64,000 bases of DNA, taken from assembly GCA_950295325.1 (NCBI GenBank), contig OX485803.1, positions 41,493,554 through 41,557,553 of the forward strand, written 5' to 3'. The position numbers were made by a program, and so were the translations under genes. Shown piece after piece: positions 30,401 through 51,762 of this stretch (positions within the stretch are counted from its first letter, which is position 1; each line of letters opens with the position of its first letter). The notes under the pieces were generated by a model. The model ran no database searches. It was not told where the DNA came from and saw nothing but the letters and a program-made list of their open reading frames with translations. Source of the stretch: Polytrichum commune (taxonomy: Eukaryota; Streptophyta; Polytrichopsida; Polytrichales; Polytrichaceae).

Positions 30401-30565
30401 CTTGCTTCTAGGTACATCTCATTTCCATAAGAATTGCAATGGTGCCCCATAACCAGGTGGACACTTCATAGCACGTACAAACTAACATTTGTGTAGAAAG
30501 GGGTATTATTTGAGGGATTAACGTACATAGTTATATAAGGGAGAGGTATTTTTTCTCTCTAGTAA

Positions 30566-30591
30566 CACTATATTCGTTAAATTGAGACTTT
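30566..30591 (+). repeat. Left terminal inverted repeat
   Basis: These 26 bp are identical to the inverse of 47858-47883. The inverted match breaks at base 27. Confidence 0.9.
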
Positions 30592-30699
30592 TTGGGCATT
30601 TTGAGACATTCACATAAATAAGAACAAGGATAAATGGAACACATATTGGAGAAAGTTGTAAGATGCGAACACTTTGTGTCGGGTATTTAGAACAAGAAC

Positions 30700-30980
30700 C
30701 CCATTAATAACTCATATTTGGGATTGTTTAGGATGAGCAATCCAAACCTTAGGCCAAATTGAAGGGGAAATCTTAAAACATTCATATTATCGCACACAAA
30801 ATATGAGATCTTGTATGAATATGTTTTAGGTAGGGCACTCCAAACCCTTAGACCATATTGAAGGGGAACTATGTGAACCAATATAATATAACATACAAAA
30901 TATTCCAAACTCATATTTGTGATGGTTTAGTTAGGGCAATCCAAACCTTGGACCATATTGAAGGGGAAATCATGTGACAC
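30700..30980. repeat. Left subterminal repeats, three units of about 98 bp
   Basis: Each unit carries a GTTTAGG-like / CCAAACC-like imperfect palindrome (near 30728, 30822 and 30924). A 'cc(a/t)tattgaaggggaa' block and an AT-rich tail follow. The cores match the outer bases of the 22-bp palindrome found through the element. Confidence 0.7.
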
Positions 30981-31111
30981 TTATATTATTGCAAAAAAAA
31001 CATACAAAGTATGGCATGTAAAATGCATAGCATGCTAACACCACACATACATTGGATAGTGCGACCCAAAATGATGTTGCCTATGGCCCAAAACCCTACG
31101 CCTACTATGGC

Positions 31112-31918
31112 CTATCTAGCCTCGGAGATTGCCTCTTTTTCTTTTGCTTTTTTTTCTTTTGCCTCTTTTTCTTTTGCCTCTTTTTCTTTTGCTGCGGCTT
31201 CTTTTGCTCGCATTGCTTCAACATTCCTGAAAATCTCCGCCCCGCGACTATAGTCATTCTTGGGGTGACCGCCATCCATAAGACATTTTGGAGTCCGTCG
31301 GCCGCCCGAAATATACGTCGAAGAATTCGAATACGATGAAGTGGATTGTCTCGCATTTCTGGTCATGGCGTACATACGCTCGAACTCGATGGACGCACTA
31401 GACCGCATAGGTTTTCGGGTGGGAGCAACCTGCAACGCGTCATTGCAAGACCACATGTGTTAGTTTAGGGAGGAAGACCCAAACGTGTCACACGATCATT
31501 TTTTAAGTGCAAAATGATTGTAATGCGCGGTTAACCATGTTTTAGAGAGGGGGGGGGGGTTCACCTTGTCACCGGGGGCGTTCCCATCGGAGTTGGCAAG
31601 GAGGGGCAAGGCGTCCCGCAAAGGAATAGGAAGGGTTCCACTCTTCGTTGGCCGTGCGTCCATCCGCAGCCGCCGTTGAGGTGTAATACTTCCGCCGGGC
31701 CGAGAGGGGGATGTCCGGACGCATTTGCGATTTATGCCCTTGAGCGGCGACGGGGACGGAGATCGCCGTAAGATTTGCTTGGGTGGGGGGCTATCGACGA
31801 CGCCGGCGTCAATAGGCTCCTTGGAGTAGTCAATGGTTGATGCGGCGTCGTAAACGGTCTCGTAGAAGAAGCTCCCCAACTCTGACTCGCTGACGATGTC
31901 AATCGAGGGCTCCAAACG
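31112..31918 (-). CDS. Two-exon low-complexity protein of the transposon (5' end unknown)
   Basis: Exon 31565-31918 (118 codons) follows a strong acceptor (pyrimidine tract, then CAG at 31919-31921) and ends in AAG|GTGAAC. Exon 31112-31429 (105 residues and a stop) follows TTGCAG. Phases agree. The first part reads RLEPSIDIVSESELGSFFYE, then a Pro/Ser/Arg-rich chain. The second ends in a Lys/Glu/Ala-rich helix of repeated AKEKE units (31120-31200) that is probably coiled coil. The start lies upstream and I could not fix it. The neighbouring phosphatase-like ORF ends in its own stop with no phase-0 donor before it, so this is probably a separate gene. Function unknown. Confidence 0.45.
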
Positions 31919-32056
31919 CTGGCGCAAAAAGGAAACGAAACAAAACCCAAAGGAAGAGGGTTTGCTAGAGCGCGTGAAAATCAAGATATATATGAAGCAT
32001 ATATTACACAAAGTGGGCGGGCGCATACACACACACACACACACACACGTGCTGCC

Positions 32057-32806
32057 TCAAATGAGCTTGTTAAATTTCGCGTGAGAGAACAACTCTCTGT
32101 ACAAATGGTCTCGTGGATCCAAGTATCTCTCGCCTATCGGATTATTCCTAACAAAATTGTTTACAGGTAGTCCGCTTCCCCTGAGCGCCTGGAGGTATTT
32201 ACTAAGGTCTAACAAAAATCGGTCCCGGACCTTCTCGACCGTCCACGTAGGGCAAACTATTAAGTTGGCCGCCGGGTTCAACATGTTCTTTGCGGCGCTG
32301 TCGTCCACCATGAGCATGTTCTCCCGGGTGGGACGGACGTCGTAGGGGACACCTATCAATGACGGACGCTGGTCCCAAAAAATGGGCTTCAAGACCTTGA
32401 GGTATTGGGGGGAAGCGGGGTTGTTTGGTTTTTTGACGACTTTGCCGTCCGGTGTGTACAATATTCTACAGGCTTCCTGTGCTAGGACCATGCAGGGGGG
32501 CTCGATGCCCTTGAAGATGAACTCCACGACTGCATTGGTGTTCTCGGCCTTCATGGAGCTCCACACGACCACCCACCATCGTTGTTGGGCGATCTGGAGG
32601 AAGGTCCGAAGCCACGGGCGGAGGTGAACTAGCTTGCTCTTTATGAACGTGGGCGGCCCGTCGTAATTCGCGTCCTCGGGCTTGCAAAAGGGCACCGTGG
32701 GGGTCCTCGGGCAATGAACGCATTGGACGAGGACCCCGTTGAGGTCTAACACCAAGAACCGGGTCTTAGGCGGCAAAGGTGGAACGGGTAAAATGGGGGG
32801 GACCAT
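32057..32806 (-). CDS. FCP1/NIF-type HAD phosphatase-like protein, 249 aa
   Basis: The ORF starts MVPPILPVPPLPPKTRFLVL and reads straight into HAD motif I, DLNGV (D21, N23). Motif II is VVVWSS (about 79-84), and motif IV is LMVDDSAAKNM (D168, D169). The length and spacing match the CTD-phosphatase-like (NIF, FCP1 homology) fold, whose members remove phosphate from RNA polymerase II tails or other Ser/Thr sites. The second Asp of the DxDx(T/V) signature, the usual acid-base residue, is Asn here. Activity may therefore be altered, although Asn at this site occurs in some plant relatives. There is no intron. It lies just downstream of the large DGQH protein on the same strand, within the transposon. 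I infer that it is element cargo; a captured host gene is possible. Confidence 0.7.
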   Translation of the reverse strand: MVPPILPVPPLPPKTRFLVLDLNGVLVQCVHCPRTPTVPFCKPEDANYDGPPTFIKSKLVHLRPWLRTFLQIAQQRWWVVVWSSMKAENTNAVVEFIFKGIEPPCMVLAQEACRILYTPDGKVVKKPNNPASPQYLKVLKPIFWDQRPSLIGVPYDVRPTRENMLMVDDSAAKNMLNPAANLIVCPTWTVEKVRDRFLLDLSKYLQALRGSGLPVNNFVRNNPIGERYLDPRDHLYRELFSHAKFNKLI

Positions 32807-33309
32807 CGCGCTACCTTCCTCGCTTCTTGGAGAGCCGCGACGCTATGCTCCGATCCCTGTGGAGACGAGCGACATAAGGCAGGGGAAGACTATGTCATGC
32901 TATGTCCACTTAAAGTGAATACAATATTTTCTGTGAAAAATACAAGAACCACTATGCATAGGCGGCCATACAAATGCAAGAGGGGGCAAGAGGAAAAAAT
33001 ATACATTTGAACACAAAAACAAACATAAGGGCACAAAATAATAATTTTATTGTTTGCAATGCTCTATGTACAAAATGCCTAGGGGTGCGAAGCCGCGTTG
33101 AACGATCCGTTCAAACTATCCTAATTCAACATCTACAAAATTGTGTGCACGCCTCCAAGTTCGAGTAAAATCGTGGGACGGGCGACGTTAGTGATCGTCG
33201 GGGGGGGGGGGGGGGGCTGAAGGGATGCGAGAGCGGATGGACGGGGTGGGGGCAGTTCCTCCTAGCTAGGGGGGACACGACCACGGCAACAAGACAATAG
33301 ACCAGGAGT

Positions 33310-33331
33310 TTGGGTCGAGCGACCCAAACTG
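33310..33331. repeat. 22-bp palindrome just 3' of the DGQH gene
   Basis: Arms GTTTGGGTCG and CGACCCAAAC surround AG, about 10 bp past the stop codon. Two further copies lie inside exon 3, near 33629-33650 (centre GC, perfectly symmetric) and 33699-33720 (centre GA). Confidence 0.9.
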
Positions 33332-33339
33332 AGGAGGTC

Positions 33340-36300
33340 TCAGTGTATTACCTCTCCCTGGTCATGCCTGGACGCCATGGAAGCCTCCACCGCCTCCGCT
33401 TGTCGTTCTCTCTCGCCACCGCCTTCTCCGACGATGTCAGCACCCCTCTCCTGCAAGCGCTCAGTGTCAGGACCTTCTCCTAACCCAACCTCCGCATGTG
33501 CATCATGCATAGGTTCATCGATTGGGATAGGAGTAGAGGTATCACCAGGCCCTCGAGGACCTTCAACATCAGGCATGGGTGTGTCTCTTTCAGACCCATG
33601 CTGGTCCATTGAAGACTGAGCGGTAACGGGGTTTGGGTCGGCCGACCCAAACTCTCGTGCATCATGAGATTGGCCTTGTTGCACTGTAAGGGGGGGCGGG
33701 TTTGGGTCGGACGACCCAAACATGTGGGGGTCGTCCTGCTGATGGGGCGGGGGGATCACCAGGGGCGGCCGAAGTGGTGGGGGGGTCACAGGTCTAGAAG
33801 ACCCGGGAAGGCGCCATATATTGGGGTCATCCGCTTGTTGAACCGGCGGATACGGACGGACGTGGGGGGGAACCATGTGCTGAAAGCTGAAGGAGGATTG
33901 CGGCACGGGCTGCGGAGGAATGTTCTGGGGAGGGAAGCCGGGGGGCAAGTGTGGAAATGAGCCCGGGGGAGCCACCACCAAACCCTGCGCCCACATGCCT
34001 CGAATCACTTGCGTGATCAAGTCCGCACTAGTTGGAGGTTGCGCCAATGCCCGCAGTCGCTCTTGCTCCAATAAGAGAGCCCTTAGCTCTGCCACTTCGT
34101 TCCGCACTGAGGGTTCTTCAGCAGCGGCCTTTTGCAAGCGGACGCGTTGTTCTTCGTCCCTTAACATCTTCTCGTTGGCTTCTTGCACGGTGAGGACTTC
34201 CGGCTTCACCTTCACCATCCCTGCGAAGGCACCTAGAGAGGGAGGGTCCGACCTGAGCCATTTCGCGAGCTCCATGTCGTCCTCGTCTTCGCTGCTAATG
34301 GCAATTGTCTCCTCGATGGCATAGTCGCCATAGAGTTTCTTGCCTTTTAGTTTCCTCCTCTCCCTGAACGCGGCAGTCGCATCCCTGGAGTACATGTCGC
34401 GGGCATCATCAACCGTCAGGACGGGCACCAACTTACTTTGTGGAGTTGCTACCCGCATTGCCTTCTTTCGTTGAGGGGCTTCAGATTCCTGAGTGAAACC
34501 TGTTCCCCCTTCTTCGACCTCGCCCTCCACTTTAGCCTCTTCTTCCTCCTCTTCCACCTCCTCCTCCTCCTCCCCCTCCTCATCACGCGGTCGCCGAGAG
34601 GATGTGCCTGGATGCACTTGGACCAGAGGCTCTGGTACAGCAACTGGAACCCTTATGGCCAATTCTTCAGGGTTGACACGCCTCGCCTTATCCAGCGGGC
34701 TCTCACCCCCTTCAACAGTCTCCTCGGCGTAGCTCCCAGGGATCCAGTCTAGTATATCCATCTTCTTCGCCAATGATTTTTGGGCCTTGTAGAATTGGAT
34801 GTCATTAAGGTCTACATAGCTGTACACGTTCAGCCCCAGCATCTGCAGAAATCCCACCAGATGTTATTATATGGCATAACATATGATTCCACCGAAAAGG
34901 GGAAGTACATACAAGACCTAATATCAATTGCAAAGGTTATAGTTTGGGTCGAGCGACCCAAACTAGCATCGGTGTTAGTTTGGGTCGCTCGACCCAAACT
35001 ATGAAAACAATTATGGTAAGGAGCTTACCATGCCAGCGAAGACGGGCTTGGTGCCGCCGAAGACGTTGAATATACAGTCCCCTCTTCTCGTCAAGGCCCT
35101 CATTATTCGGAGATAGAATTCCATCCGCAACTCGTCCGAATGGTATATGGCATATTTTGCCTCGTCGTAGAGGGACTTACTTGCGCCCAGGCCTTCTGGA
35201 ACTTGGAATAGTTTCTGCATCCGGGTTATGGGGTGGTTCTCCACCTTCAGCAAGGTTGCTTTGAACACAAAGTACAAGCACAACAAATTCATGACTTTGG
35301 TTTTCTTGTCCTTTAGTGTCGTGTACACCCCCTCCGCCGGTGCAGCAATGTAGTGAGACTTAGACACCGCATACTCAGGCTGCAATTTCCTCACAATTTC
35401 ATACACCTGCTCTGCTATCCTATCCTCTACTATCCACAGCCACATATCGACCTCCCTAAGCTTAGGGCTTGCATACTCCACGAACTTCGACATGAAGGGC
35501 TCGTAGAAGGGTGTACCCATTGTGCCCTCAAACGTACTCCCAAGAATGCTCCGGAAGTCTATTATACCAAAGGGGAACCGGTCCGCTGCTCTTACTCGTA
35601 TTTCTTTCCTGGAATCAAGGCCGGGCCATCCCTGGATTTTAATAGGGTCAAAAGCGACAAGGTTGAAATGCGCATCCCCCTCAAAACTTACAATCTTCTT
35701 CTCCTTTATAAAGTTTGAGAAGGCACGCGTCGAGTGTTCTGGAAGAGCCAGGTTCTTCCCACCCTTCACCAGTTTTGACTTTAGGAAGTCTTCTCCTGCC
35801 TCCCTGATCAGAGCTGCCATGGATGCACTGGTGAAGTTGTATTCAGCCTTGAACGCTCTCCAGTTCACCTCGTTCACCTCGTCATCGACAAAAATGTTCT
35901 TTTCCGGGATTAGCTTCTGCAGCTCCTGGACGATCGTTGTTTTCTTCTTCCTATTCTCTGCCCATTCCTTCATTGTGTAGCATGAAGGAACAAAGGATTT
36001 CGGCTTGGTGAAGACTATTTTGGGGTACACCCAAAATCTCTTAGGGGTCGGGTTGTTGTGCAAGATGTGCGTTGCCGCCTTCCCCATTTCCGCCTCCGAA
36101 AGACCCTGCAGACTTCTAAAGAATTCTCTCATGAGAGGCTTCATCGCCTTGAATCGAGAGGACGAGTTGAAGAGGTTGCATGTGTCAGGATCCATGAGAT
36201 CCCCTGTCTCGTGTTTCTCAAACACTGTCTTCCACTTCTGCCAAACCATGTCGGATGATGTAATCAAGTAGATCTCTCCTCTTAGCTCATTGTACTTCTT

Positions 36301-38042
36301 TTGCTTGTGACTTGAATTGTCAATTGAGGAGAACTTGTTTATCATTTGGTATTTGAAAAACTGCACAAGAGCATAGAATGCGTGTTAATTCTCAATATGT
36401 TGTTTCCAAACAAAGAAGAAAAATGATGAACAACAAACTGCGTAGACAAACACAAACTAAAACACAAGGTTTGGGTCGAGCGACCCAAACTGTATGAAGA
36501 AACACAAGGTTTGGGTCGAGCGACCCAAACTGTATGAAGAAACACAAGGTTTGGGTCGAGCGACCCAAACTGTATGAAGAAACACAAGGTTTGGGTCGAG
36601 CGACCCAAACTGTATGAAGAAACGCAAAGTTTGGGTCGAGCGACCCAAACTGTATGAAGAAACCCAAAGTTTGGGTCGAGCGACCCAAACTCTGTTTGAG
36701 AAACAATGCTCACCTCCCACTTTGGATTCTTGTCTTTTGCATTCTCCCTTTCCTTGGGAGGCCGGCCGTAGAACTCCCACACATCCCGCGATGCCATGAT
36801 GGTCATAATCCAAGAAGCTTGATATGCCCGCTTCTTGTTATTCATGTTGAAATAGCGGGAGATATCGCTCAGCCGGGTTTTGTCGTCCGACCACACGACC
36901 AATGCCTTCCATACCTTCAATTTTTCCTTTAGACCATTAGGATCATTCCACTCCGTCATCAGTTGAAGTTTCTTTGAAGCTTCAACACTGTGCTGACCGT
37001 CAATCAGCCAAAAATCGCCTTTCTCTATAGAAGGCCACATATCCAGTGTAGGCATTCTTTTGTGTCCCTGAGGCATGACAACAATAGTCTGCCTATCATG
37101 TTTAAACTGGTCGCTCACCATCTGGGCGATTAACCAATCAACATACGCATCTTCCTTTGCCCGAACGCACTTCTCTGGTGGCGCTAGGTGGCATTGTGCG
37201 ATGTTGACATCAAACTTGAATTCTCTACCCATGAAAAAACAATGTAAACACTTGGTGTCGAAATTGTTGAGTATTTTCTGGATCTCCGATGGCTCCACTC
37301 CTTTCCCGGGCTTGGGCATACGTAGCTCCGGTGAAACAGGCTCATCTGTCATGGCAGATACTGACTCTCTCGGCCTCTTAGATGGTGTCGTCTGCCGGCT
37401 TTGTGATGGCGTCGGTGTTTCACTATCAGCAGGAGTTGCCGTAGGTGTTGTTCTCCTCGAGTCAGCTGGAACCGGTCGGGGCTTCCTCACTGTTTGAGGT
37501 CTTGACGACCCTGCGCCCTCTTCAACAGTCGCCTTGCGCCTCACAACTTGTTGAGATTTTGACTTGCTTTGCTGGGTCTTGTTTATTGCGTTGATTGCCT
37601 GCTTAAGTTTAGTGAACCTGGTTGCAACCTTCGTGTTTGAAATGATCGCATCTATGAAGATTGTATCCGGTTTAACAATGTCTGGCTCAGCGCAGGATTC
37701 CTTCACGTATACCGGATCGAATGGCTCGGCTTGCTCATGCATGAACATGTGCACATTTTCCAGAGAAGAGTTTTCCAGGATGACGTCAACGTGCTCTCCT
37801 AGAGCATGAACTGATGCCACCTCCCATCCCGTCAAAGCATCCCATGTGTGTTGCTCCTCCGTGCCAACCTTCAAAACAAGGAGGATTTTGAATTGAGTTG
37901 CCTTTACTACAAGAAAGGACCATGCAATTACGAGGTCTTCTTTTGCTACGTAGGATTGGTTTTTAGGAGTTTCGTGCTCCTGCCAGATCGCGTCTGGTGC
38001 CGGCTTGAACCATCGTTCTCCAGGTCTTTTCTTGGGGGGCAT
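33340..38042 (-). CDS. Large DGQH-motif (ParB/DndB-like) protein, 3 exons, 1387 aa
   Basis: Exons 36714-38042, 35029-36360 and 33340-34842 join in phase 0 (donors GTGAGC and GTAAGC, acceptors TGCAG). The start MPPKKRPGERW directly follows a TTGCAG acceptor, which suggests a 5' UTR intron. Residues about 160-260 are a Ser/Thr/Pro/Arg-rich linker. Residues 300-443 contain FWLIDGQHSVEASKKL (D348), the DGxH(R) signature of ParB/Srx-fold and DndB-type proteins. The usual Arg after His is Ser. LSDISRYFNMNN follows. Exon 2 (444 residues) is a well-ordered chain I do not recognise (YCLYFVFK-like and WLWIVEDRIAEQVYEIV segments). Exon 3 has an acidic run (EEEEEVEEEEEE), a coiled coil (EVAELRALLLEQERLRALA) and a Pro-rich tail. 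Two palindromes are translated in frame as FGSSDPNP and FGSADPNP. Introns 1 and 2 hold six and two palindromes. Enzymatic or DNA-binding roles are inference. Confidence 0.65.
34945..35001. repeat. Palindrome pair in intron 2 of the DGQH gene
   Basis: Two full copies, one with centre AG and one with centre CT, lie about 33 bp apart in an otherwise ordinary intron of 186 bp (34843-35028). Confidence 0.9.
36460..36692. repeat. Six palindromes in tandem in intron 1 of the DGQH gene
   Basis: Each unit of about 40 bp is 'aaacacaag', the palindrome with centre AG, then 'tgtatgaag'. The six units are almost identical, so amplification is recent. The array ends about 20 bp before the exon 1 donor (in + coordinates, 36692 versus 36713). 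Open frames through the array (GSSDPN- and VWVARPK-like repeats) come from the palindrome and are not genes. Confidence 0.95.
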
Positions 38043-38065
38043 CTGCAAGTAGAAATACATATGTT

Positions 38066-38855
38066 AGTTTCGGTCGGGCGACCCAAACTCTTTCAAATCA
38101 TATAGGCTTATGTCTGGGTTTAGTAACATTTATATATGGGGTTACTTTTCACAGGTTTGGGTCGAACGACCCAAACCTGTGCCTACAATGGCTAATGAAT
38201 AATATATTATTTGGCTACGAAAACCAATCTTTAAGTTCATGGATACAACAATCATCACGAGCTACTGTTCTAGTTGTGGGTCATTTCATTATTGCTTGGG
38301 TGTTTGAGTTGTTGTTTATAAGTGTAAGTATTGTTCGTAAGCAGTAAAAATTTACGCAGAGTTTGGGTCGTTCGACCCAAACTTTGTAGCGGTATGGAAT
38401 GATCGGCTATGGCCTTTGATCATACCCAAGATGATGATTACCTAAATTATGAATTACCATTTCATGCGCTGTTTGGGTCGAACGACCCAAACTCTGCAGA
38501 TGGATTGGGTCGAGCGACCCAAAGCATGTGCTAGTTTGGGTCGAGCGACCCAAAGCATGTGCTAGTTTGGGTCGAGCGACCCAAACTCTGCAGATGGATT
38601 GGGTCGATAGGGTTAGATATTCACCCAAGATGATGATTAAATTAATTATAAATGAACATTTGATGCGGAGTTTGGCTAAACCCTAGACCCAAACAATGCT
38701 TATGGTTTGGGTCGAGCGACCCAAACTCTGCAGATGGATTGGCGCCCACGACCCAAAGCATCTGCTAGTTTGGGTCGAACGACCCAAAGCATCTTTAGAG
38801 TTTGGGTCGAACGATCCAAACCAGCTGGAGAGTTTGGGTCGCTCTACCCAAACCA
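38066..38855. repeat. Palindrome cluster upstream of the DGQH gene
   Basis: About 11 copies occur, near 38066, 38155, 38361, 38471, 38502, 38536, 38567, 38706, 38769, 38800 and 38832, plus half-sites near 38600 and 38890. Centres vary (GG, AA, TT, AG, CT) and spacing is irregular. Several copies follow 'ctgcagatgg' or 'catgtgcta'. The cluster lies in the promoter or 5' UTR intron. Confidence 0.9.
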
Positions 38856-40769
38856 GCTGCAGAGTTTAGTGTTTTAGGGTTTCAAACTGAAGTTTGGGTC
38901 GTCTCTCGAAACACTTTTGATTCCAGAGACCTTTATAATGTGTTTACGCAGCATATACAATGCTTATGCATTGTAGATGCTGCGAAACTTTAAAGAAATT
39001 GACACACATAAAGAAGTTGAAGAAATCACCTTGCTTTGCAAACTACACAACAAGCTGCTGTTGGAAGCAGTTCTAACAAGCTAGTCTTGGAAGCTGATTC
39101 TAGAAAGGATTGGATATCATAAAACTAAGAACGCCTCACAAACATTCACTCTGAATTGAAGAAGCTTTCACAAACATTCACTCAGAATTAAACAATCCCT
39201 CACAAACATTCACTCTAAATGTAACAAGTGTTTACAAACATGAACAAAGAAGCTATCTGAAGGCCACACATGCATCCTGATTTTCGAACAATCATTCTAA
39301 TTCCGAAATCACTCTACACTCACACATGAATGTTTCTAAGACCAGGAGGAACTGACACAACCACTTTGAAACAACACTCACACTCCAAAACAACAAAGAC
39401 GTTTTGAAATGGCTAAAATGTATAGACTTTAATACAAAAACAAACCCTAAACTCATACTACACTCAGAACTCGGTCAATGCGCACTCAATGAACAACAAA
39501 ATAGATCAAAAGAAGAGGAGGAGTGAAAGAGAGAATGAGATAATGATGAAGAGGGAAGGAGAGAGGGAATGCAAGTTCGACAAGGAGAGAGAGAATGCAA
39601 GGGAGGAGGCGGCGCTTTCAAGAGCGGCGGCGCCTCCAGAAAGTATGAGGAACGTACAAAGGAGGAGGAGCTTGGAGCGGAGGAGAGAGAAGGAGAAAGT
39701 GCGGAGGGGAGAGTGAAAGGGGGAAGGTCACTCAAGGGCGGGACCCATTCGGGCCGGCGCCTTTCGTGTCCGTTCGGCTCATGGCCGCCACGTGTCACGG
39801 GGCGCTCCATGGCCCAAACGAATACACAATCTGAGCCATTGGAGAGCCCCAGGCCCATCGACGGTCGATAGGCCTCGCAGGTGGGTATCCTTTAGCCACC
39901 TATCCCATACCATCCTTGAGGATACTAAAAAACCTTTATAGCCTAAGGTTTTTAATTTAATGGTCCCCCGATGGATTTGCTAATATCAAATAATGAAACT
40001 GTATTGGTTTTGTAATTTTAGTAATCTACACATATGCATGAATCGAGAATGATAGATACTAGACTAAGAGGAGTATTTAATAATTATATTGCAATCCTCG
40101 TAGGCAATTACATAATGGAATAATATAACTATGGTAACCATTTACACAATGAATGGTTTCGAGTTATATATTGTAATTATCTATGAAGGTTGTTGGTAAA
40201 GGACAATGCTATAGCCTACGATGGATCCGTTAACACATACCATTGAACTAAATCTAATTATACAAGTTTATGTAGTGTCATTCATTATAATATGGAATTA
40301 TGCAATATTAAGTGTTGACAACTTAATATCATTGTTGTTTGCGAAAAGCAACAAAGATGTTGTTTGATTTATAGCATGATGGAACATTAACATACTTATT
40401 TACAAGTTTACATATTTATGAGATACAAATATATTGAAGCGGGTGTTTTTGCTGAAGAACCCAATTAAGAACTCATATGAAGATGGTTTAGGTAGGACGA
40501 CCCAAACATTAGACAATGTTGTTGTTGTTCATATATTTAGTTGAGACAAGATAAAGTCTACAAATATTGAATATAGTGATAGTAAATGAGAGAAGCACCA
40601 TGTATACAAATATGAAGCTATCAAATACTAATATGTGGAGTTTAACATTATATGAAGCCATTTAAGCAATCACTTTGTTGTTGGATGATCCCTCCACATA
40701 TATTAAACAACATATCTTATTAGGAAATGAGGCACAAATTACAGTAGATGGTGTTCTATATGGAAGCCA

Positions 40770-41318
40770 CACGGGTAGGTCACTCTAAGGCATTTTTGTG
40801 CACCACGTGCGGCTCAGGGTTTTTTGTTTTGGGGCTATTTACCTTCAAGGGTTGAATTAAAGCCTCCCTATAATTACTTGAATTTCAAAAATGGCCCATT
40901 TGTTTGCACCCTTCCATTACTTATATTGTCCAAGTCACTGCAATTTTTTGTACTCTATATTCCTTTTAAGTAATAAAAGCTAATCTACTTCCTGTTAAGG
41001 GAAACCATGGAAACAAAGAAGGGTGCAAACAATAATATCATTGCAAACAAAGTTATGAAGAAAACACATAGGAGACCATAGCAAACATTATACTAAACAT
41101 ACCTTCTAGGAACCTTATCTTCAGCCCCTATATTAATTTTACAAAAAAATAATGGCCCACATTTTATGTCCATCTAACTTACTTATAATGGGATTGTCTA
41201 CATTTAATGGCCCCTTCATTATTTGGAATTCCTTTATAATTTTTATTTCAAATGATTTCAATCCTCTCTATATTATGCCGAACGTCGTTTTTAAAATGCA
41301 CTAAGTGACCTACCCGTG
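40770..41318. mobile_element. Nested 549-bp MITE with 8-bp target duplication
   Basis: The left end CACGGGTAGGTCACT is matched by the inverse AGTGACCTACCCGTG at the right end, and similarity continues through a 'gcattttt' block. The flanks are GGAAGCCA (40762-40769) and GGAAGCAA (41319-41326), identical at 7 of 8 bases. No coding capacity. An 8-bp duplication points to hAT or a similar superfamily. Confidence 0.75.
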
Positions 41319-41345
41319 GGAAGCAACCCTGAACAACTACGAGGG

Positions 41346-41392
41346 TGTAGGGTGTAGGGTGTAGGGTTTAGGGTTTAGGGTTTAGGGTATAT
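41346..41392. repeat. Interstitial telomere-like repeats (TTTAGGG)
   Basis: Three GTGTAGGG units grade into about three TTTAGGG units, the plant telomere motif. With so few units it could be a telo-box-rich stretch or a healed break. Confidence 0.85.
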
Positions 41393-43260
41393 AAATGTGT
41401 CTTGTTGCACTCGAAGCCATAAATGAATGGCGCATAGGTCAAATGAGGGGGCCAAGTCGCTTGTGGTTCTAAAAACAAATGTATATAGATATCACAATAG
41501 TCTAATTCATGAACATGAACGTTGGTTACATTTCATGTTATGTTTGTTATGTATGTTATGTTACGTCGTAGATGCGTTCATATTTAGTGTATAAATCTCT
41601 AAATATCTTATTTAGTGTAGTGACACTAGAACACACCAACATGTATTTAAGGACATGTTCTGCTCAACTTGCATTGAATAGATACAACTATATATGTTTA
41701 GATTTTTCATCAAACATTTGTTAAAACAAATAAAGTTGACTACATTTTTTTTGGCAAGCCAAATCAATAAAAACTATAGGTACAAAACACAACTACAATA
41801 AGTATGATATTTAGTGTTTGATACACTAAATACAAGTGAATACACAATATATCAATAACCATATGAAAGTAATAAACATTAAATATAAGCTATAGTAATA
41901 TGTGGCATTGACATGTTTGAATTTAGTGTTAGTAAGGATGTGAAAAGAAGAAATATACGTGAGAGTAGAAGGTAGCAACACATTTACTTCTAACACTAAC
42001 TGTCATAGGATTGAAAATTAATGTTGAGCATGTAAGGGTGGTAACCATAGTCCGCCAAGAGCCTAAGGCTAGTGTAAATGCAGCCTACAAAATTTGTGAC
42101 TTAGCCTATAAAATTTTGAAAGTGTAGGACAAAGAGCCTATGGACAATTTTAAAACATAGGATATCAACCTATGTGGTAAAAAACATGTAGGAAATTTTG
42201 CCTACAAAGTTTTTAAAAGAGCGGATTTTAGCCATTCATCCTTCTTCAAATTGGGAAATTAGTTGGCCTAAGTACATATCTTTAGGCTAATACTCGGGGC
42301 TCTTGAGTGGCACATAGGCGGATATCAATAATAGCCCTGACTCCCTCCCCGTCGATCTTTACAAATACCACAGCCCAAGCCCCATCACCGCATAGAGGTT
42401 GAATCAGAAGATGGTGAGGACTTTCACCCTTAAACTCATTTGAATTTTAGCAACCTTTCATAACTTATAATCAACTCTTTAAAAAGGAGTTGGTTAATCC
42501 TTGGCCTTCAAACGTGGTGAAGGGCTTAGCCAGGTTCAATTCCTGCCAAGGATACCACTTAGTACTCAAATTTTGAATTTAAAGCCTACAACATTAAAAG
42601 ATATGAAGGATTTTAACCTACTAAAAATTAGTTTTAAAGGCAATTGGCAGGTAACTTAAAAACTCAAAAGGTTTTCAACTTACAAAAATTTGATATTGTA
42701 GGATGCAACCTATGCCATGAGGGAAATAGCCTATGCCCTTTTAAAGAGGTAGGCAATTAACCTCAATAACTTCAAAAACTTTTCGGACACTGGTGGTAAC
42801 AACACTACATATAATCAAATCCACACATCATATTTTGTGTAGTTATTTAATAGCGGAATTAGGAGGTTAGTTGTCCAAGGTCATTTGATGGTTGGCGCCA
42901 CGAAGAGGCAAGCTAAATATGGATGCTCTATTACCAACAAGAAGCGGGAAATTCTGTCAGAAGGTTTGAACTTAGGTTTAGGGTTTACGTTCGGGCGGGA
43001 AAGGGATCCAAAGAGGAAGGCCAAGGCGGAGGCGGGTAGTATAAAGTACCAAACCCCCCAAACTTTGCTCCTTTTTTCTCATCTCTCCATTCTGAAATGG
43101 TTGCAAGCTCTCTCAAGTAGTGGTGGAGTGCAAGGTTCGTGTATGCATCCGTTGATGAGTAGCTAATTACAACAGCCATGCACGGCCTGAATTCTTCCAA
43201 TTAGTATCCACGTAGCTGAATATGGAAGATTACCGCAATTTAAGGCGGAATTTGCGGAAT

Positions 43261-44094
43261 GTTTGGATCGCTCGACCCAAACCCACCCCCATAGTGAGGT
43301 TTGGGTCGAGCGACCCAAACCCACCCCTATCACGGGCTGGGCCTGGATTAGCAAGCCCATCCTGTCACGAGGTTTGGGTCGCTCGACCCAAACCCACCCC
43401 CTCTCACGGGCTGGGCCTGGATTAGCAGGCCCATCCTGTAACGAGGTTTGGGTCGCTCGACCCAAACACACCTCCATTGTGAGGTTTGGGTCGAGCGACC
43501 CAAACCCACCCCTGTCACGGGTTGGGCCTGGATTAGCAGGCCCATCCTGTCACGAGGTTTGGGTCGCTCGACCCAAACCCACCTCCATTATGAGGTTTGG
43601 GTCGAGCGACCCAAACCCACCGCTATCACGCGCTGGGCCTGGATTGCCAGGCCCATCCTGTCATGAGGTTTGGGTCGCACGACCCAAACACACCTCCATT
43701 GTGAGGTTTGGGGCAAGCGACCCAAACCCACCCCTGTCAGGGGTTGGGCCTGGATTAACAGGCCCATCCTGTCACGAGGTTTGGGTCGAGCGACCCAAAC
43801 CCACCCCTATCAAGGGCTGGGTCTGGATTACCAGGCCCATCCTGTCACGAGGTTTGGGTCGAGCGACCCAAACCCACCCCTATCAAGGGCTGGGTCTGGA
43901 TTACTAGGCCCATCCTGTCACGAGGTTTGGGTCGCTCGACCCAAACACACCTCCATTGTGAGGTTTGGGTTGAGCGACCCAAACCCACCTCCATTGTGAG
44001 GTTTGGGTCGAGCGACCCAAACCCACCCCTGTCACGGGTTGGGCCTGGATTAGCAGGCCCATCCTATCACGAGGTTTGGGTTGCTCGACCCAAA
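43261..44094. repeat. Palindrome array upstream of the candidate transposase gene
   Basis: Fifteen copies of the palindrome begin at 43261, 43299, 43372, 43446, 43483, 43557, 43594, 43668, 43705, 43779, 43852, 43925, 43962, 43999 and 44073. CT-centred and AG-centred copies often alternate in pairs 37 bp apart. Between pairs lies a second inverted repeat, GGGCCTG-(6 bp)-CAGGCCC, eight times. The array ends about 190 bp before the ATG at 44288. Long open frames across it on both strands are repeat artefacts. Confidence 0.95.
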
Positions 44095-44287
44095 CCCACC
44101 CTCATGCACACAATGGGGATGTGCATAGACGGATCCTGACTAAACTGTTGTGCGCTCCATCTTTTTGGAACCCATCGATATAATATTCATACAACATGTG
44201 TTATGATAAGGTTTCTGTGTTTTTCTATTGGACCCTATAGCTTTTGTCAATTCTTTACAAGGTTCCATGTTCATGTGTGTAGGCAAA

Positions 44288-47200
44288 ATGGATGGGTATA
44301 CTGGAAGAGGGTATTCGTCTGGAGAAGACATGGCCACTTGGCCATCTGCATCTGAGGAAGAGCTAGACATTGTCGGGGAGGCTACTATGGATGAGAGTTC
44401 AGATGAAGAGCGTTTCGATATACCTTCGCGTTCCGTACCGGACTGTCCCATTCCAGAGTGTGCCGTGCTTTCAAGAGCTTCATGGGTGAATTTGGATGTG
44501 TTACTTCTTAATGACAATGGGGTTGTTGTGGCGGAGGGTATCTGTCGTAACACCCATCCACAAGATTGCATTGATCAAAATCCGCTTGGCACCGAGGACG
44601 TTGGGATTGTCATATTGGAGTCACTCGTTCCTTCTGAGGTGGATCCCACTCATAGGTTCTCCCTCCGCAGGTGGCCATTGAGGAATGTCACGACTGATGG
44701 AGTTAGCTTGCGTGAACATGAGCAACGACACATGCAACTCGAAAAGGAAATGCAATCAAACATGCGGCCACGCAAGGGTCAAAGAAAGTACGATACTGTG
44801 GCACGTCCTTCTCCATCTGCAACTGATTGTAAACGTCAAAGGCTGCTTGGGGAGGAGTCCATAAGAGAAGTTGCCACAAAAGATTGTTGTGCGCATTGTT
44901 GTTGCCAATTGTTTCCAAGGGATAAATTGAAGGCCATCCGTGAAGAAATGTGGCTTGGAGATTTTCGTCTAAGATCCACAAAAAAACTTGATGTCCATAG
45001 GGCAATACATGTGAATGGGACGGGTCGCAAGGTAATCACCATTGAAAGCATAGACGTGTGTTGTAAGGCATGGTACACCATTTACGGTGTGTCGAAGGCG
45101 GACTTCTATAGACAAGCTGCTTATGCCAAGGAAGGCCGCCGGTCCCGTTACCATGGGAACGTGGGTTTAAAGAAACCTAGGGAAGCAACAAGACAAGCAA
45201 CGGCAACTCTAGCAACCATCATTGTCCCCCTTGCTGATGCAATGCCGCACAAAACACGCACACTCACAACCGGTGAAAAGGTTGTGGAGAAAGTTTTTCC
45301 CACAGGCACAAAATGGAAAGACATATTGTTGGACGTTAATGCAGTTGGCGAGAAGATTGGGTTGGAGCCAATTTCATTGTCAAAATTAAGTGCAATCAAA
45401 AAACAAAACTTTAGCGAATACATTACAAAAAGACGAGGGGACAAATTTGCCAGGTGCTCTAATTGCGAGAAGTTGAAGCGCCTCCGGGATGCACACACGA
45501 TGGATACCGAGTCATATGCATCGCATCAATTGAACTATTTCAAGCACGTAAACATGCAAGAGGCACACCGTAATGATTACTACACAAATAGAGCTTTGTC
45601 CATCTCCAGGCCCTTGGAGGTTCTTACGGTCATCCATGACAAAATGGACCATGCCAAAACAGCCTCCCCATGTTTTGCAAATCGAATCAAGGCCACGGAT
45701 GGGTTTTTTAAGTTGCATCTATCGGTTACAGGTGAACTTCGAAACAATGTCATGACATACCCTAAATGTTGTGGTTTTTTATTCCGTGATGTACTGGAGA
45801 ACATGGATTCCTTCATAATGGTTTATTCATACATAGATGCTAATCACGTTGGGTTGGCATTGCAGGAATGATTGCACATGGACACGGTGATGTCAAGTTT
45901 GCTCATTATGCTCTTGATTTGTATCCAGCGGATTCAAACCACACGATAGGATCATTTGCAAGGCTTTTACGTGATTTAGAGAAACCACCAGCCTATTCTT
46001 CAGGATTGTTATTTGAGAACACAGGTTCAACACCTTTATATGAAGCGGTGTTGGATGGAAAAGATGTATGCTTGCATTCGTTGCCCGAGCCACCCAATGA
46101 ACCCGTGATTGCCAAGAAGTTGCCTCCAACTTTGCGTGTCTAATTGGACAATTGTGCCAAGGACAATAAAAGCATATATGTATTTGCATATTGGTCGTTG
46201 TTGGTTGCGAAAGGCATTTTCAAGGAGGTTTTTGTGTCCTTCCTATTGGTAGGCCACACGCACAATGATATTGATGCATCTTTTGGGCGGTGGAGCATGA
46301 AGTTGCGGGAGGAGGATTTTCCTACAATCCCATTATTGATGAAGTCGTACATGGATTTGGAGAACGTTCCCGTCATCCCCCATATGATTGAGGAGGTGCC
46401 AGACTTTAAGGCATTTATAGAACCTTATATTCGAAGTGGAGCTCACCGATTGATCGGGCATACGAAGGCACAACAATTCCGGTTCTACATGCGTGACGAT
46501 GGTGTCCCGGCCATGCAATACAAGTTGTTGTGCACGACACAAGACTGGAGCCCGCCGGAGGGTCTTCTTGTGTGGCGCGTGGATGCGGATGGGAAGACCA
46601 TGTTACCGGATGGGGAGCCTAGCCCTTGTAAGCCAATAGCCATGAAGAATTTGGAGGATATTTTGAAAGGTATATCAGGCTTCATACAATATTGGGAGAG
46701 TTTGAAGATAGCGGATGTTGGCGGATCATGTTGGCATCGTTATGGGAGTTGGATACATTATTGGACACGTGTTCGTGCCGCCTTGGTAGACCTCCACCAA
46801 GATAGCCCTCATACTTTGAGGCATGGATTTTGGCCACAAACACGAGTCGATGTACAAGCTTCAGAGGCTAGTCTTTTGGGAAATGGAGAGGTTCGAGAGG
46901 AGTTTGATGTGGACGACCATTACGTGGGGCCTGCTAGTAGTCGTCCGCCACCATCTTTCCGCATTGCAGTGGATTGTCATGAAGGATATATGCTCATTTT
47001 GCGTCCTGGAGACGAGACATATGTGAAGCCAGTGTGGGTGGCAAGAGCTTTGTCCAAACCCAATTTTGTAACTTCCAGCCCTCATTTTCGACAAATACAA
47101 GTGGAGTACTACCGACCGACGGCAAGGAATGAAGATGTGATTCGGCATTATACAGGCTGGGATACAAACCCTAACTTTCGGTGGAAGGTGGATTCTGAGC

Positions 47201-47352
47201 ACGGTCCATCTTGGGTAGATACAGATTCCATATTCATAGCATGGAAACCACGGAAAAATCATAGTGGATCAGTGTCCATCCCTCAAAAGTACATAACTTT
47301 TGCAAAAGACAACCTTGCTCGGATCGCAGAAGAAGCAACCCACGTTGAATGA
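44288..47352 (+). pseudogene. DUF7869-like protein, candidate transposase, interrupted
   Basis: The likely start is ATG 44288 (MDGYTGRGYSSGEDMATW), just after a TGTGTAG acceptor-like site. Frame 1 runs to about 45790, with a Cys cluster CCAHCCCQLFP, LSLSKLSAIKKQNFSEYI-like helices and the acidic motif VIHDKMDHAKTASP. A second frame resumes at a GCAG acceptor at 45861-45864 with MIAHGHGDVKFAHYALDLYP, and runs to 47352. The frame change is best explained by an intron of about 70-100 bp whose donor I could not fix. TAA at 46141-46143 interrupts LPPTLRV*LDNCAKDNK, where relatives appear to have a coding residue; CAA to TAA is the simplest change. GHTHNDIDASFGRW follows. The Asp-rich motifs suggest an RNase H-like DDE core, but this is inference. 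The N-terminal half is acidic and variable. Confidence 0.65.
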
Positions 47353-47883
47353 GAAGTTGGTAGGATTGTATTAGCATGATTATAGTGTAAACAGTAATTC
47401 TACGAACATATATTACTCATATGTGTGCTCTTCAAAATTGGGGCAGAGTTTGGGTAGAACTTACGAATACTATATTGTTTTGGAGTTGAATGAATATCCA
47501 TTTACTATATTTCAATACAAATGTGAAGTTCATTTTTTTATTAAGTTTGGGACTAAATTGTCTATTGAAAAAATATGCATTTATTACATGCACTTTGTAT
47601 GTTGCAATGTCTATATTCTATGGAGCATGCTAATAATAGAAATCATTATATATATATTTTTGGGTGAAACTTGTTTGGAGTGCTCTACCCAATGTGTTTT
47701 TGTTGATGAAATTGGTGTTGAGTGCTCTACCATATGTGCTTATGTCCGCACATCATAGGTGTGGGATATTAGAACATTTAATATATTTGAGATTGTTGAC
47801 AATATAGTTTCAGGCATCTTCATGTTGTTTGATCCATATATTAATTTGAGACTAGAGAAAGTCTCAATTTAACGAATATAGTG
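47353..47883. other. Right subterminal region of the transposon
   Basis: AT-rich. It has degenerate palindrome relatives (gtttgggtag near 47449, TGTTTGGAGTGCTCTACCCA near 47681 and 'ttgagtgctctacca' near 47717). A small hairpin, GAGACT-6-AGTCTC, lies close to the terminus. Confidence 0.6.
47858..47883 (-). repeat. Right terminal inverted repeat
   Basis: The exact inverse of 30566-30591. It is followed by TTTAGTGT, the right target-site copy. Confidence 0.9.
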
Positions 47884-48589
47884 TTTAGTGTGTACATCTA
47901 AAATGATTATTATTTTTCTTTGAAGTAAAGGTAGAAGTACAAAAGGGGCCCTGAGGTTTAGAGAAAAAATTGATAATAAATGTGCAAGTTTTGTTCAATT
48001 TACTTTATTTCATCCAAATGGCATGTGTTTAGGGGTCATATTCCTATGAGTGAAAAAATGTTCAATAAATTTCTCATTAGAAAGTGAAAGTGGATTAACT
48101 ATGTAATAAATGCCTATTTATTCATGATTTATATTTTGTGTGTGTAGTAGAGGCATTTATTATATTCAATTGAAAAGCTTAGTATAATTACATGAGTCCA
48201 TTTTCTAGCCTAATGTTAGTACATATACGTATGTTTTCTCTATAAATTTCTTGTATATGGGTTTTTTATTTCACAGTCACCTGTGCACGTCATTTCAGTT
48301 TCCAATGAAGAGTCCACCTCCTGGGAATGTACACATAATACTACTTGATAAAACTAATAGTGTCACCAAAGCCTACTATTGATGCAACTCTCCTCTTAAC
48401 AATTATACTACAAATTGTCATCTACCTACTCAAGCCATTTGTGGGGCACAACTTGTTCGGTCATAGGCAAAACCAAAGGTAATATTGAGATATTCTTTGT
48501 TTGGATAAGAATGCACAAATCACAAAAAAGTTGGTGATAATGCTCTTCATTTGGATGAAGGCCAACCTTACAAGCACTAGCAGTTGGAT

Positions 48590-48842
48590 CACTATATTCG
48601 TTAATTTGGGATTTTTTTGGCATTTTGAGACAGTTACAAATATAAGAACATGGATAAAATCACACAGATCTTGGAGAATGTTGTAAGATGCAAATACTTT
48701 GAAGCGGGTGTTCATATCAAGAACCCAATTAAGAACTCATATCAAGATGGTTTAGGTAGGACGACCCAAACATTAGACCATGTTGTTGTGGTCCAAATAT
48801 TAATTTGAGACAAGAGAAAGTCTCAAATTAACGAATATAGTG
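48590..48842. mobile_element. 253-bp non-autonomous derivative of the 17.3-kb transposon
   Basis: Its ends are CACTATATTCGTTAATTTG and the inverse. Inside are the left-subterminal blocks (ttggcattttgagaca, gaatgttgtaagatgc(a/g)aa, aagaaccc(a/c)attaa), one palindrome-like site (ggtttaggtaggacgaccca) and the right-terminal hairpin block. The flanks agttggat and atttggca agree at 5 of 8 bases. It lies about 700 bp to the right of the large element. Confidence 0.8.
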
Positions 48843-48849
48843 ATTTGGC

Positions 48850-50540: not shown

Positions 50541-50862
50541 GATGAGAAAGAAAGGGAAAAAGGGTCCATTTCAGTCACTTCGGGGCCACTTACGTTATGA
50601 AGATGAAGCACTAAGATTGAGTTAGTTAAGTTTCCAGGTGCGGAGACAAGACAGTTGTTGAGTTCATCGGATGTGGATGTCGGCCTGTACAAGACAATTT
50701 CAAGCTCTCCTGACTCCTCTCCAATACCTGGTTGATGGATGATAAATACCTGGTTGACTGCTGCTTCACGACATAATATCTATCACCAAACCTAGTACTC
50801 AGTTTCTGAATGCAGCGCAATGTAACTTATGTCTGCAGAGACTCTTGGGCATAAGTTATTCA

Positions 50863-51762
50863 GTGGTTCCAAGTCCCACCGGTTATGTGTTGGTTCTCTT
50901 TAATAATTTGAAGCAATGTTCTGTACGTTCCTCTAGAACGATCGGTGATCTTCCCCGAGTCTTGGTTTCCAACCGGTTATTTGAGACCCTAGTGGTTCCA
51001 AGTCCAACCGGTTATATGTTGGTATTCTTTAATAATTTGAAGCAATGTTCTGTACGTTCCTCTAGAACGATCGGTGATCTTCTCCGAGTCTTGGTTTCCA
51101 ACCGGTTATTTCAGACCCTAGTGGTTCCAAGTCCAACCGGTTATATGTTGGTTCTCTTTAATTTGAAGCAATGTTCTGTACGTTCCTCTAGAACGATCGG
51201 TGATCTTCCCCGAGTCTTGGTTTCCAACCGGTTATTTGAGACCCTAGTGGTTCCAAGTCCAACCGGTTATGTGTTGGTTCTCTTTAATAATTTGAAGCAA
51301 TGTTCTGTACATTCCTCTAGAACGATTGGTGATCTTCCCCGAGTCTTGGTTTCCAACCGGTTATTTGAGACCCTAGTGGTTCCAAGTCCCACCGGTTATG
51401 TGTTGGTTTTCTTTAATAATTTGAAGCAATGTTCTGTACGTTCCTCTAGAATGATTGGTGATCTTCCCCGAGTCTTGGTTTCCAACCGGTTATTTGAGAC
51501 CCTAGTGGTTCCAAGTCCAACCGATTATATGTTGGTTCTCTTTAATAATTTGAAGCAATGTTCTGTACGTTCCTCTAGAACGATTGGTGATCTTCCCCAA
51601 GTCTTGGTTCTCAACCGGTTATTTGAGACCCTAGTGGTTCCAAGTCCAACCGGTTATAAGTTGGTATTCTTTAGTAATTTGAAGCAATATTCTTTACATT
51701 CCTCTAGAATGATTGGTAATCTTCCCCAAGTCTTGGTTTTCAACTGGTTATTTCTCAAACTT
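50863..51762 (+). repeat. Minisatellite, 129-bp unit, 7 copies
   Basis: Units start at 50863, 50992, 51121, 51247, 51376, 51505 and 51634. All are 129 bp except the third, which is 126. Each contains AACCGGTT twice and 'tctagaacgat(c/t)ggtgatc'. Because 129 and 126 are multiples of 3 and no unit carries a stop, a 330-codon ORF (50845-51837) runs through with a 43-residue repeat (VVPSPTGYVLVLFNNLKQCS...). I see no start context, signal or family and treat it as satellite DNA. Confidence 0.85.

Follow-up and report, generated by a model that had tools for sequence, protein, structure and literature searches.

A constrained 22-bp palindrome shared by two unrelated types of transposon in the moss Polytrichum commune

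Palindrome clusters in a DUF7869 transposon

We analyzed a 64,000-nucleotide stretch of the Polytrichum commune genome (contig OX485803.1, positions 41,493,554 to 41,557,553; hereafter the window), which harbors a large transposon encoding a DUF7869 transposase, a DGQH protein and a phosphatase (Table 1). Scattered through this transposon are copies of a 22-bp palindrome, hereafter the site, in which two 10-bp arms flank a central dinucleotide. The window copy of the element is designated W and its relatives elsewhere in the genome A, B and C, while F and D denote two copies of a Mutator-like element carrying a DGNHR gene. Searching the window for GTTTGGGTCG-NN-CGACCCAAAC with at most 3 mismatches returned 39 matches, compared with 0 expected from 100 dinucleotide shuffles. 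Positions 33308-44095 hold 37 of them, 27 exact, in agreement with an earlier note on this DNA that had described about 37 palindromes with conserved arms at 33310-44094. The other two (40486 and 48750) are degenerate forms located inside short copies that have the ends of the large element. The centers that the note had listed (AG, CT, AA, TT, GC, GA and GG) were all recovered, together with CA (43668), which its list lacked.

As judged from splice signals, 34 of the 37 sites are intronic, 2 are exonic and 1 lies past a stop codon. The clusters occupy several distinct sequence contexts, as had been reported of their flanks. Of the locations named earlier, introns, a 3' flank and coding sequence held up; the supposed promoter clusters did not, a TATA-like box and a splice donor preceding them, and they are thus most simply read as lying in introns of 5' untranslated regions (5'-UTRs). 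Tandem duplication units within the clusters measure 31-32, 40 and 38/73/111 bp. Many copies per cluster are tandem duplicates, so the 37 sites do not represent 37 independent events. In the window copy, a second inverted repeat, TGGGCCTG..CAGGCCCA, could be made out by eye within the spacer sequence of the transposase array (43330-44060).

Table 1. Features of the DUF7869 element and its palindromes, in window positions. TIR, terminal inverted repeat; TSD, target site duplication; ORF, open reading frame; MITE, miniature inverted-repeat transposable element.
Feature	Position	Strand	Details
Single palindrome, center AG, 3' of the DGQH stop	33308..33329		Same place in A, B and C; arms identical in 20/20 columns
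Two palindromes in DGQH coding exon 3, 69 bp apart	33631..33721		33631, center GC; 33700, center GA; both sites also in A, B and C
Two palindromes in DGQH intron 2	34942..34999		Intron about 34843-35028, from splice signals
Six palindromes, tandem array of 40-bp units, DGQH intron 1	36469..36690		Intron about 36361-36713, from splice signals
Eleven palindromes in inferred DGQH 5'-UTR intron	38067..38853		Intron about 38043-39029, from splice signals only
Fifteen palindromes in 38/73/111-bp units, inferred transposase 5'-UTR intron	43261..44095		Intron about 43135-44282, from splice signals only
DUF7869-transposase element hosting the palindromes, 17,322 bp	30564..47885		Perfect 28-bp TIRs 30564-30591 / 47858-47885; 4-bp TSD TAGT 30560-30563 / 47886-47889
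DGQH gene, 1387 aa, candidate regulator	33340..38042	-	Inferred exons 38042-36714, 36360-35029, 34842-33340
TATA-like box (AGTATAAAG at 43038) and transposase leader exon	43038..43134	+	Resembles promoter-leader of the DGNHR gene of the Mutator-like element
DUF7869 (PF25273) transposase gene	44288..47352	+	Inferred intron 45732-45865
NIF/FCP1-like phosphatase ORF within the element	32057..32842	-	PF03031, E 1.4e-15
Three degenerate 22-bp forms (GTTTAGG..CCAAAC type; e.g. GTTTAGGTAGGGCAATCCAAAC)	30726..30946		163, 261 and 362 bp from left end
MITE-type short copy sharing the element's terminal sequence	48588..48844		TSD TTGG; degenerate palindrome at 48750

The terminal sequence of W also ends A and C. 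Element termini read AA- or ATCACTA, and the four complete copies (W, A, C and the short copy) have TSDs of 4 bp (TAGT, ACTT, ATAA and TTGG respectively). Membership in the CACTA (EnSpm) group, which the terminus might suggest, was rejected on account of these TSDs, which are not 3 bp long. No tnp2-type transposase was detected, the Pfam scan of the transposase gene giving DUF7869 only. Sola1 transposons generate 4-bp TSDs, with which the window element agrees, TSD length being the feature compared. Sola1 has been recorded in Physcomitrella, according to part of one report (PMC9033089).

In the window copy the transposase frame is broken by a stop at 46141-46143. The matched part is stop-free in 88 of 102 other scored copies, and the transposase family therefore looks young. 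Over residues 409-626, the predicted model of P0014, a moss relative of the transposase, is similar to integrases and transposases of the DDE/D class; a Foldseek search with the transposase model gave no match at E <= 0.001. Relative to W, the transposases of A, B and C are 76-98% identical and the remaining genes about 60-95%, with the first DGQH exon at about 75% and the phosphatase ORF at 95, 75 and 77% respectively. Outside the element, 6.9 copies of a 129-bp unit (94% matches) form a tandem array at 50862-51753.

Constraint on arms, spacing and center

The arms are constrained at the DNA level. When the three single sites were aligned over W, A, B and C, the arms were identical in 59 of 60 columns compared with 124 of 240 flanking columns (p 1e-13; the flank count takes about 33 columns between the two exon sites twice), and the center differed among the four elements at each of the three sites. 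Within DGQH exon 3 of the same elements, third codon positions were identical at 15/16 places in the arms and at 188/474 elsewhere (p 1.3e-5). Arm third positions are thus kept far above other third positions, which protein conservation alone does not account for, and we rejected coding as the explanation. Arm diversity (0-0.07) was also below spacer diversity (0.07-0.42) in all 12 sets of at least 3 units of equal period, taken from 9 arrays; one array (A, 158 bp) had too few units and was excluded. Sites fall at the same gene positions in W, A, B and C though the tandem units of intron 1 differ (40, 57 and 46-49 bp), tandem amplification having occurred in each lineage. Overall, the contrast between arms and flanking bases that the earlier note had proposed to examine came out in favor of constrained arms in single sites, exon third positions and arrays alike.

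Spacing is fixed as well. Genome-wide we counted 9231 exact copies with arms 2 bp apart (11977 when 1 mismatch was allowed), and the reversed control gave 0. A spacing of 0-1 bp was found in 2 copies and a spacing of 3-30 bp in 175. Fifty of these 175 wider-spaced places were listed; 49 of the 50 have a length of 31 bp and seem to belong to a single dispersed family, the 12 for which letters were available being one form. This 31-bp form, GTTTGGGTCGAGCAAAATGCTCGACCCAAAC, occurs as one copy per place (G000) and is perhaps a third mobile family.

The center is variable but not free. Among the 9231 copies, 5475 have a purine-pyrimidine (RY) center, 38 a pyrimidine-purine (YR) center (all CA/TG, TA 0) and, by subtraction, 3718 RR or YY. 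Purines account for 0.79 of all bases at the inner position of the half-sites, and about 390 YR centers would be expected if the two halves varied independently. With 38 seen, the unconstrained center proposed in the earlier note had to be abandoned. The near-exclusion of YR is consistent with GTTTGGGTCGR as the half-site and a need for one intact half or more in each site. Twenty YR loci (21 of the 38 sites) were fetched, and 18 of them lie in the transposase array of near-identical copies of the window subfamily, apparently one inherited site. As this is so and the counts include tandem and transposed copies, YR events are even rarer than the number suggests. On the sense strand of inferred genes, to which this count is confined, both members of each complementary pair of centers are used: AC 29/GT 27, AG 21/CT 34 and AA 16/TT 24.

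These data bear on whether the palindrome acts as a hairpin or as double-stranded DNA. Across 182 sites we found 71 arm mismatches, 69 of them opposite an intact partner and none compensated. Together with the fixed 2-bp spacing and the rarity of other loop lengths, this led us to reject hairpin-driven amplification, which the earlier note had offered as the main alternative. A hairpin in pre-mRNAs with a role in splicing or small-RNA production could be argued from the position of nearly all window sites in inferred introns or exons, with a 9-10-bp stem expected in each transcript. We consider it very improbable, as no mismatch is compensated, the loop length is fixed though a hairpin could tolerate longer loops, and complementary centers are both present on the sense strand. 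Still less credible is a neutral spread, in which a functionless hairpin- or recombination-prone repeat was amplified by slippage and copied between elements: the arrays are clearly tandem duplications whose unit differs between elements, but single non-tandem sites retain their arms and not their flanks or synonymous neighbors, and YR centers are nearly missing. We therefore favor a site acting as double-stranded DNA, although some of the results pull the other way. The YR sites cannot be counted as independent events, AG is used somewhat less than CT on the sense strand (21 vs 34), nearly all window sites also lie in inferred transcribed regions, and 23 of 38 transitions keep pairing (wobble test, p 0.26), which leaves room for an RNA role. 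The earlier description of the palindrome as the site of a symmetric protein dimer is, on this indirect evidence, well supported by the fixed spacing, the conservation at synonymous positions and the complementary centers, its unconstrained center being the part that failed.

Carriers and sharing between element types

We read the surroundings of 100 listed sites out of the 9231, and all 100 lie inside five elements of two unrelated types, three of them (A, B and C) related to the window element and two (F and D) Mutator-like. Ten arbitrary 10-kb control stretches contained no site at up to 3 mismatches. On this sample we rejected a uniform genome-wide spread, and the clustering near transposon genes that had been anticipated is borne out. 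Similarly, of 37 further sites with YR centers, 23 have a scored transposase hit no more than 6 kb away (103 such hits, those scored among 1742 candidates), compared with a mean of 0.13 and a maximum of 3 in 1000 random draws. The transposase exon of the Mutator-like element gave 114 scored hits among 2163 candidates, 83-100% identical. A bacterial or viral origin of the site was rejected, no exact match being present in viral_contigs or genome_contigs.

Copies F and D differ from the DUF7869 element in their ends, transposase and TSDs (9-10 bp; AGTTGGCATG in F and TGGATGGAG(G) in D). They have the termini GCTATCTTATGAGCGRTGAGC in common, and both present the 9-11-bp TSD and TIR typical of Mutator-like elements. 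Their transposase matches the SWIM zinc finger below the cut-off (13 vs 19.6 bits, E 0.076), with a CxC..CxH pattern visible by eye. No relative of DUF7869, DGQH or any other window protein was found in F and D by tblastn. The palindromes are located in a transposase intron and in the leader of the DGNHR gene. By eye, the Mutator-like element encodes, besides the DGNHR protein, a DNA methyltransferase-like stretch (VDLTCSTGASILATRACGR; L018:265-3731 and L017:2832-6734) with no above-threshold family match, and a search with the DGNHR and methyltransferase-like pieces yielded no homologue among 7982 scored candidates.

Some copies of the two element types also have similar leaders. The DGNHR leader of F resembles the transposase leader of W (local alignment 77, maximum 30 in 200 shuffles), as does that of D (64 vs 28 in 200 shuffles), and the leader of F resembles that of A (54, shuffle maximum 30). 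The likeness runs from the TATA-like box across the splice donor. Its simplest reading is a promoter module exchanged between the element types, a reading for which a single Mutator-like family and two DUF7869 elements (W and A) provide the evidence. The leaders of B and C tell against it, with little or no likeness to F (32 and 31; maxima 33 and 29) or D (27 and 26; maxima 29 and 26). In copy D the leader array is split by two inserts, such that 45306-45449 aligns to the array of F and the rest of the stretch does not. An insert in D (G000:C1, about 441152-460851) appears by eye to be a long terminal repeat retrotransposon and has no palindromes.

A host DNA-binding protein reading the site, which transposons would have evolved as a promoter-proximal intronic enhancer, could explain why two unrelated element types share it with no recognizable common gene, and why the promoter and leader of W and A resemble those of the Mutator-like element. 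We regard this as unlikely. Host targets would be expected, yet no site was found outside elements among the 100 listed of 9231 or in the ten control stretches, a small sample.

Degenerate relatives of the palindrome lie near the ends of the DUF7869 elements. The three forms at the left end of W have equivalents in A, B and C (two of three in C), and the left 1.5 kb of each of the four elements contains 5-7 matches at up to 7 mismatches, compared with a mean of 0.23 in 30 shuffles. On the right, W, A and C have one further form, 212-213 bp inward from the end, and the outermost 1.5 kb of Mutator-like copy F contain none on either side. A decayed short copy with the ends of the large element (about 40420-40574) also contains a degenerate palindrome. 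From its position, a role of the degenerate end form in transposition is plausible, and the perfect palindrome may be derived from it. The DUF7869 transposase or an accessory protein might bind the end forms to build a synaptic complex, internal perfect copies serving as high-affinity decoys or regulatory sites in the manner of TnpA of Spm. The left-end forms (163-362 bp from the end in W, A, B and C), the right-end form and the degenerate palindromes of the short copies speak for this possibility. We nevertheless doubt that it accounts for the perfect site: on the left the first perfect copy lies about 2.7 kb inside the element, on the right the last one is at least about 3.8 kb from the end (W, A and C), and copy F has internal perfect copies but no DUF7869 relative and no form within 1.5 kb of its ends.

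Candidate binders and relation to known systems

Weighing these alternatives, we think the palindrome is somewhat more probably than otherwise the recognition site of a symmetric dimer that binds double-stranded DNA and is probably supplied by the transposons themselves, for self-regulation or anti-silencing. Two abutting half-sites GTTTGGGTCGR would be recognized, at least one of which must keep the purine beside the dyad. The transposons would place dense arrays of sites in introns just downstream of promoters and inside a regulatory gene, where a trans-acting factor, most likely transposon-encoded, could bind them. In the DUF7869 element this might be the DGQH protein; the Mutator-like element might use its DGNHR protein or borrow a factor. 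Binding would then control transcription or keep the element unsilenced. It is unlikely that the DUF7869 protein alone reads the site, because the Mutator-like element has the same palindrome without a relative of DUF7869 or DGQH. Metagenomic relatives P0115-P0117 carry a DGQH gene (65-70% identical) and, by eye, read-through peptides of the palindrome at intron positions; the association of DGQH with the palindrome is thus not peculiar to the window copy.

Several results weigh against a reader encoded by these elements. DGQH and DGNHR gave no countable match in Pfam, NCBIfam or PDB. Comparison of their profiles revealed nothing in common beyond DGxH (hhalign probability 0.2%), and the AlphaFold2 (AF2) model of DGQH had no usable fold (pLDDT, predicted local distance difference test, 33). 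The reader could instead be a host factor or a factor of a third element.

The arrangement appears to work like two known systems, a likeness of layout read here from the DNA. The VANC21 motif of Arabidopsis VANDAL transposons, which are Mutator-like, is 9 bp long (YAGTATTAY), has one orientation and is rare in other transposons, and VANC target motifs are tandemly amplified in non-coding sequence, among other places within introns of VANC21 and VANB21 and upstream of VANA21, as given in two reports (PMC5735166, PMC10398659). On that description, the moss site is likewise a short, dense motif tandemly amplified in non-coding transposon DNA with fast-diverging repeat units. In contrast to the VANC21 motif, it is a 22-bp dyad with fixed spacing, found in two unrelated element types and also in a coding exon. 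In CACTA Spm/En, the element-encoded TNPA binds repeated short subterminal sites that also affect transcription, according to part of a further report (PMC2613891). The DUF7869 elements similarly have degenerate subterminal forms, but differ from the system so described in that their perfect sites are internal, their TSD is 4 bp rather than 3 and tnp2 and TNPA are not matched; no VANC, TNPA or tnp2 family match was found among the scanned ORFs.

Bacterial ParB-parS also employs a palindromic site, and ParB-like proteins with a DGxHR/DGQHR motif exist. Each moss element type has one DGxH gene alongside its palindromic site, the protein likeness being a four-residue motif only; unlike ParB, DGQH and DGNHR match no Pfam, NCBIfam or PDB entry. 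Our literature search, judged partly by the titles listed, returned nothing on the palindromic site, DUF7869 or Polytrichum transposons, nor on anti-silencing by palindromic subterminal sequences, ParB-like proteins of moss transposons or palindromes in bryophyte Mutator-like elements.

Sharing of a palindrome across transposon superfamilies is a new aspect. In the VANDALs of Arabidopsis, where a transposon-encoded VANC protein binds its target arrays and DNA methylation is lost, sequence-specific anti-silencing is already understood in detail. The moss dyad, with its thousands of copies, its occurrence in two unrelated types of element and a constraint that can be measured at synonymous positions, would be a second, cleaner system. 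Its length allows a direct search for the binder, and its sharing makes cooperation versus parasitism between transposons testable. More speculatively, and with considerable doubt on our part, the two superfamilies may share one regulatory code, consisting of the 22-bp dyad and an exchanged promoter-leader module, read by transposon-encoded DGxH proteins that counter host silencing. If true, such a code would amount to a regulon of selfish elements spanning superfamilies.

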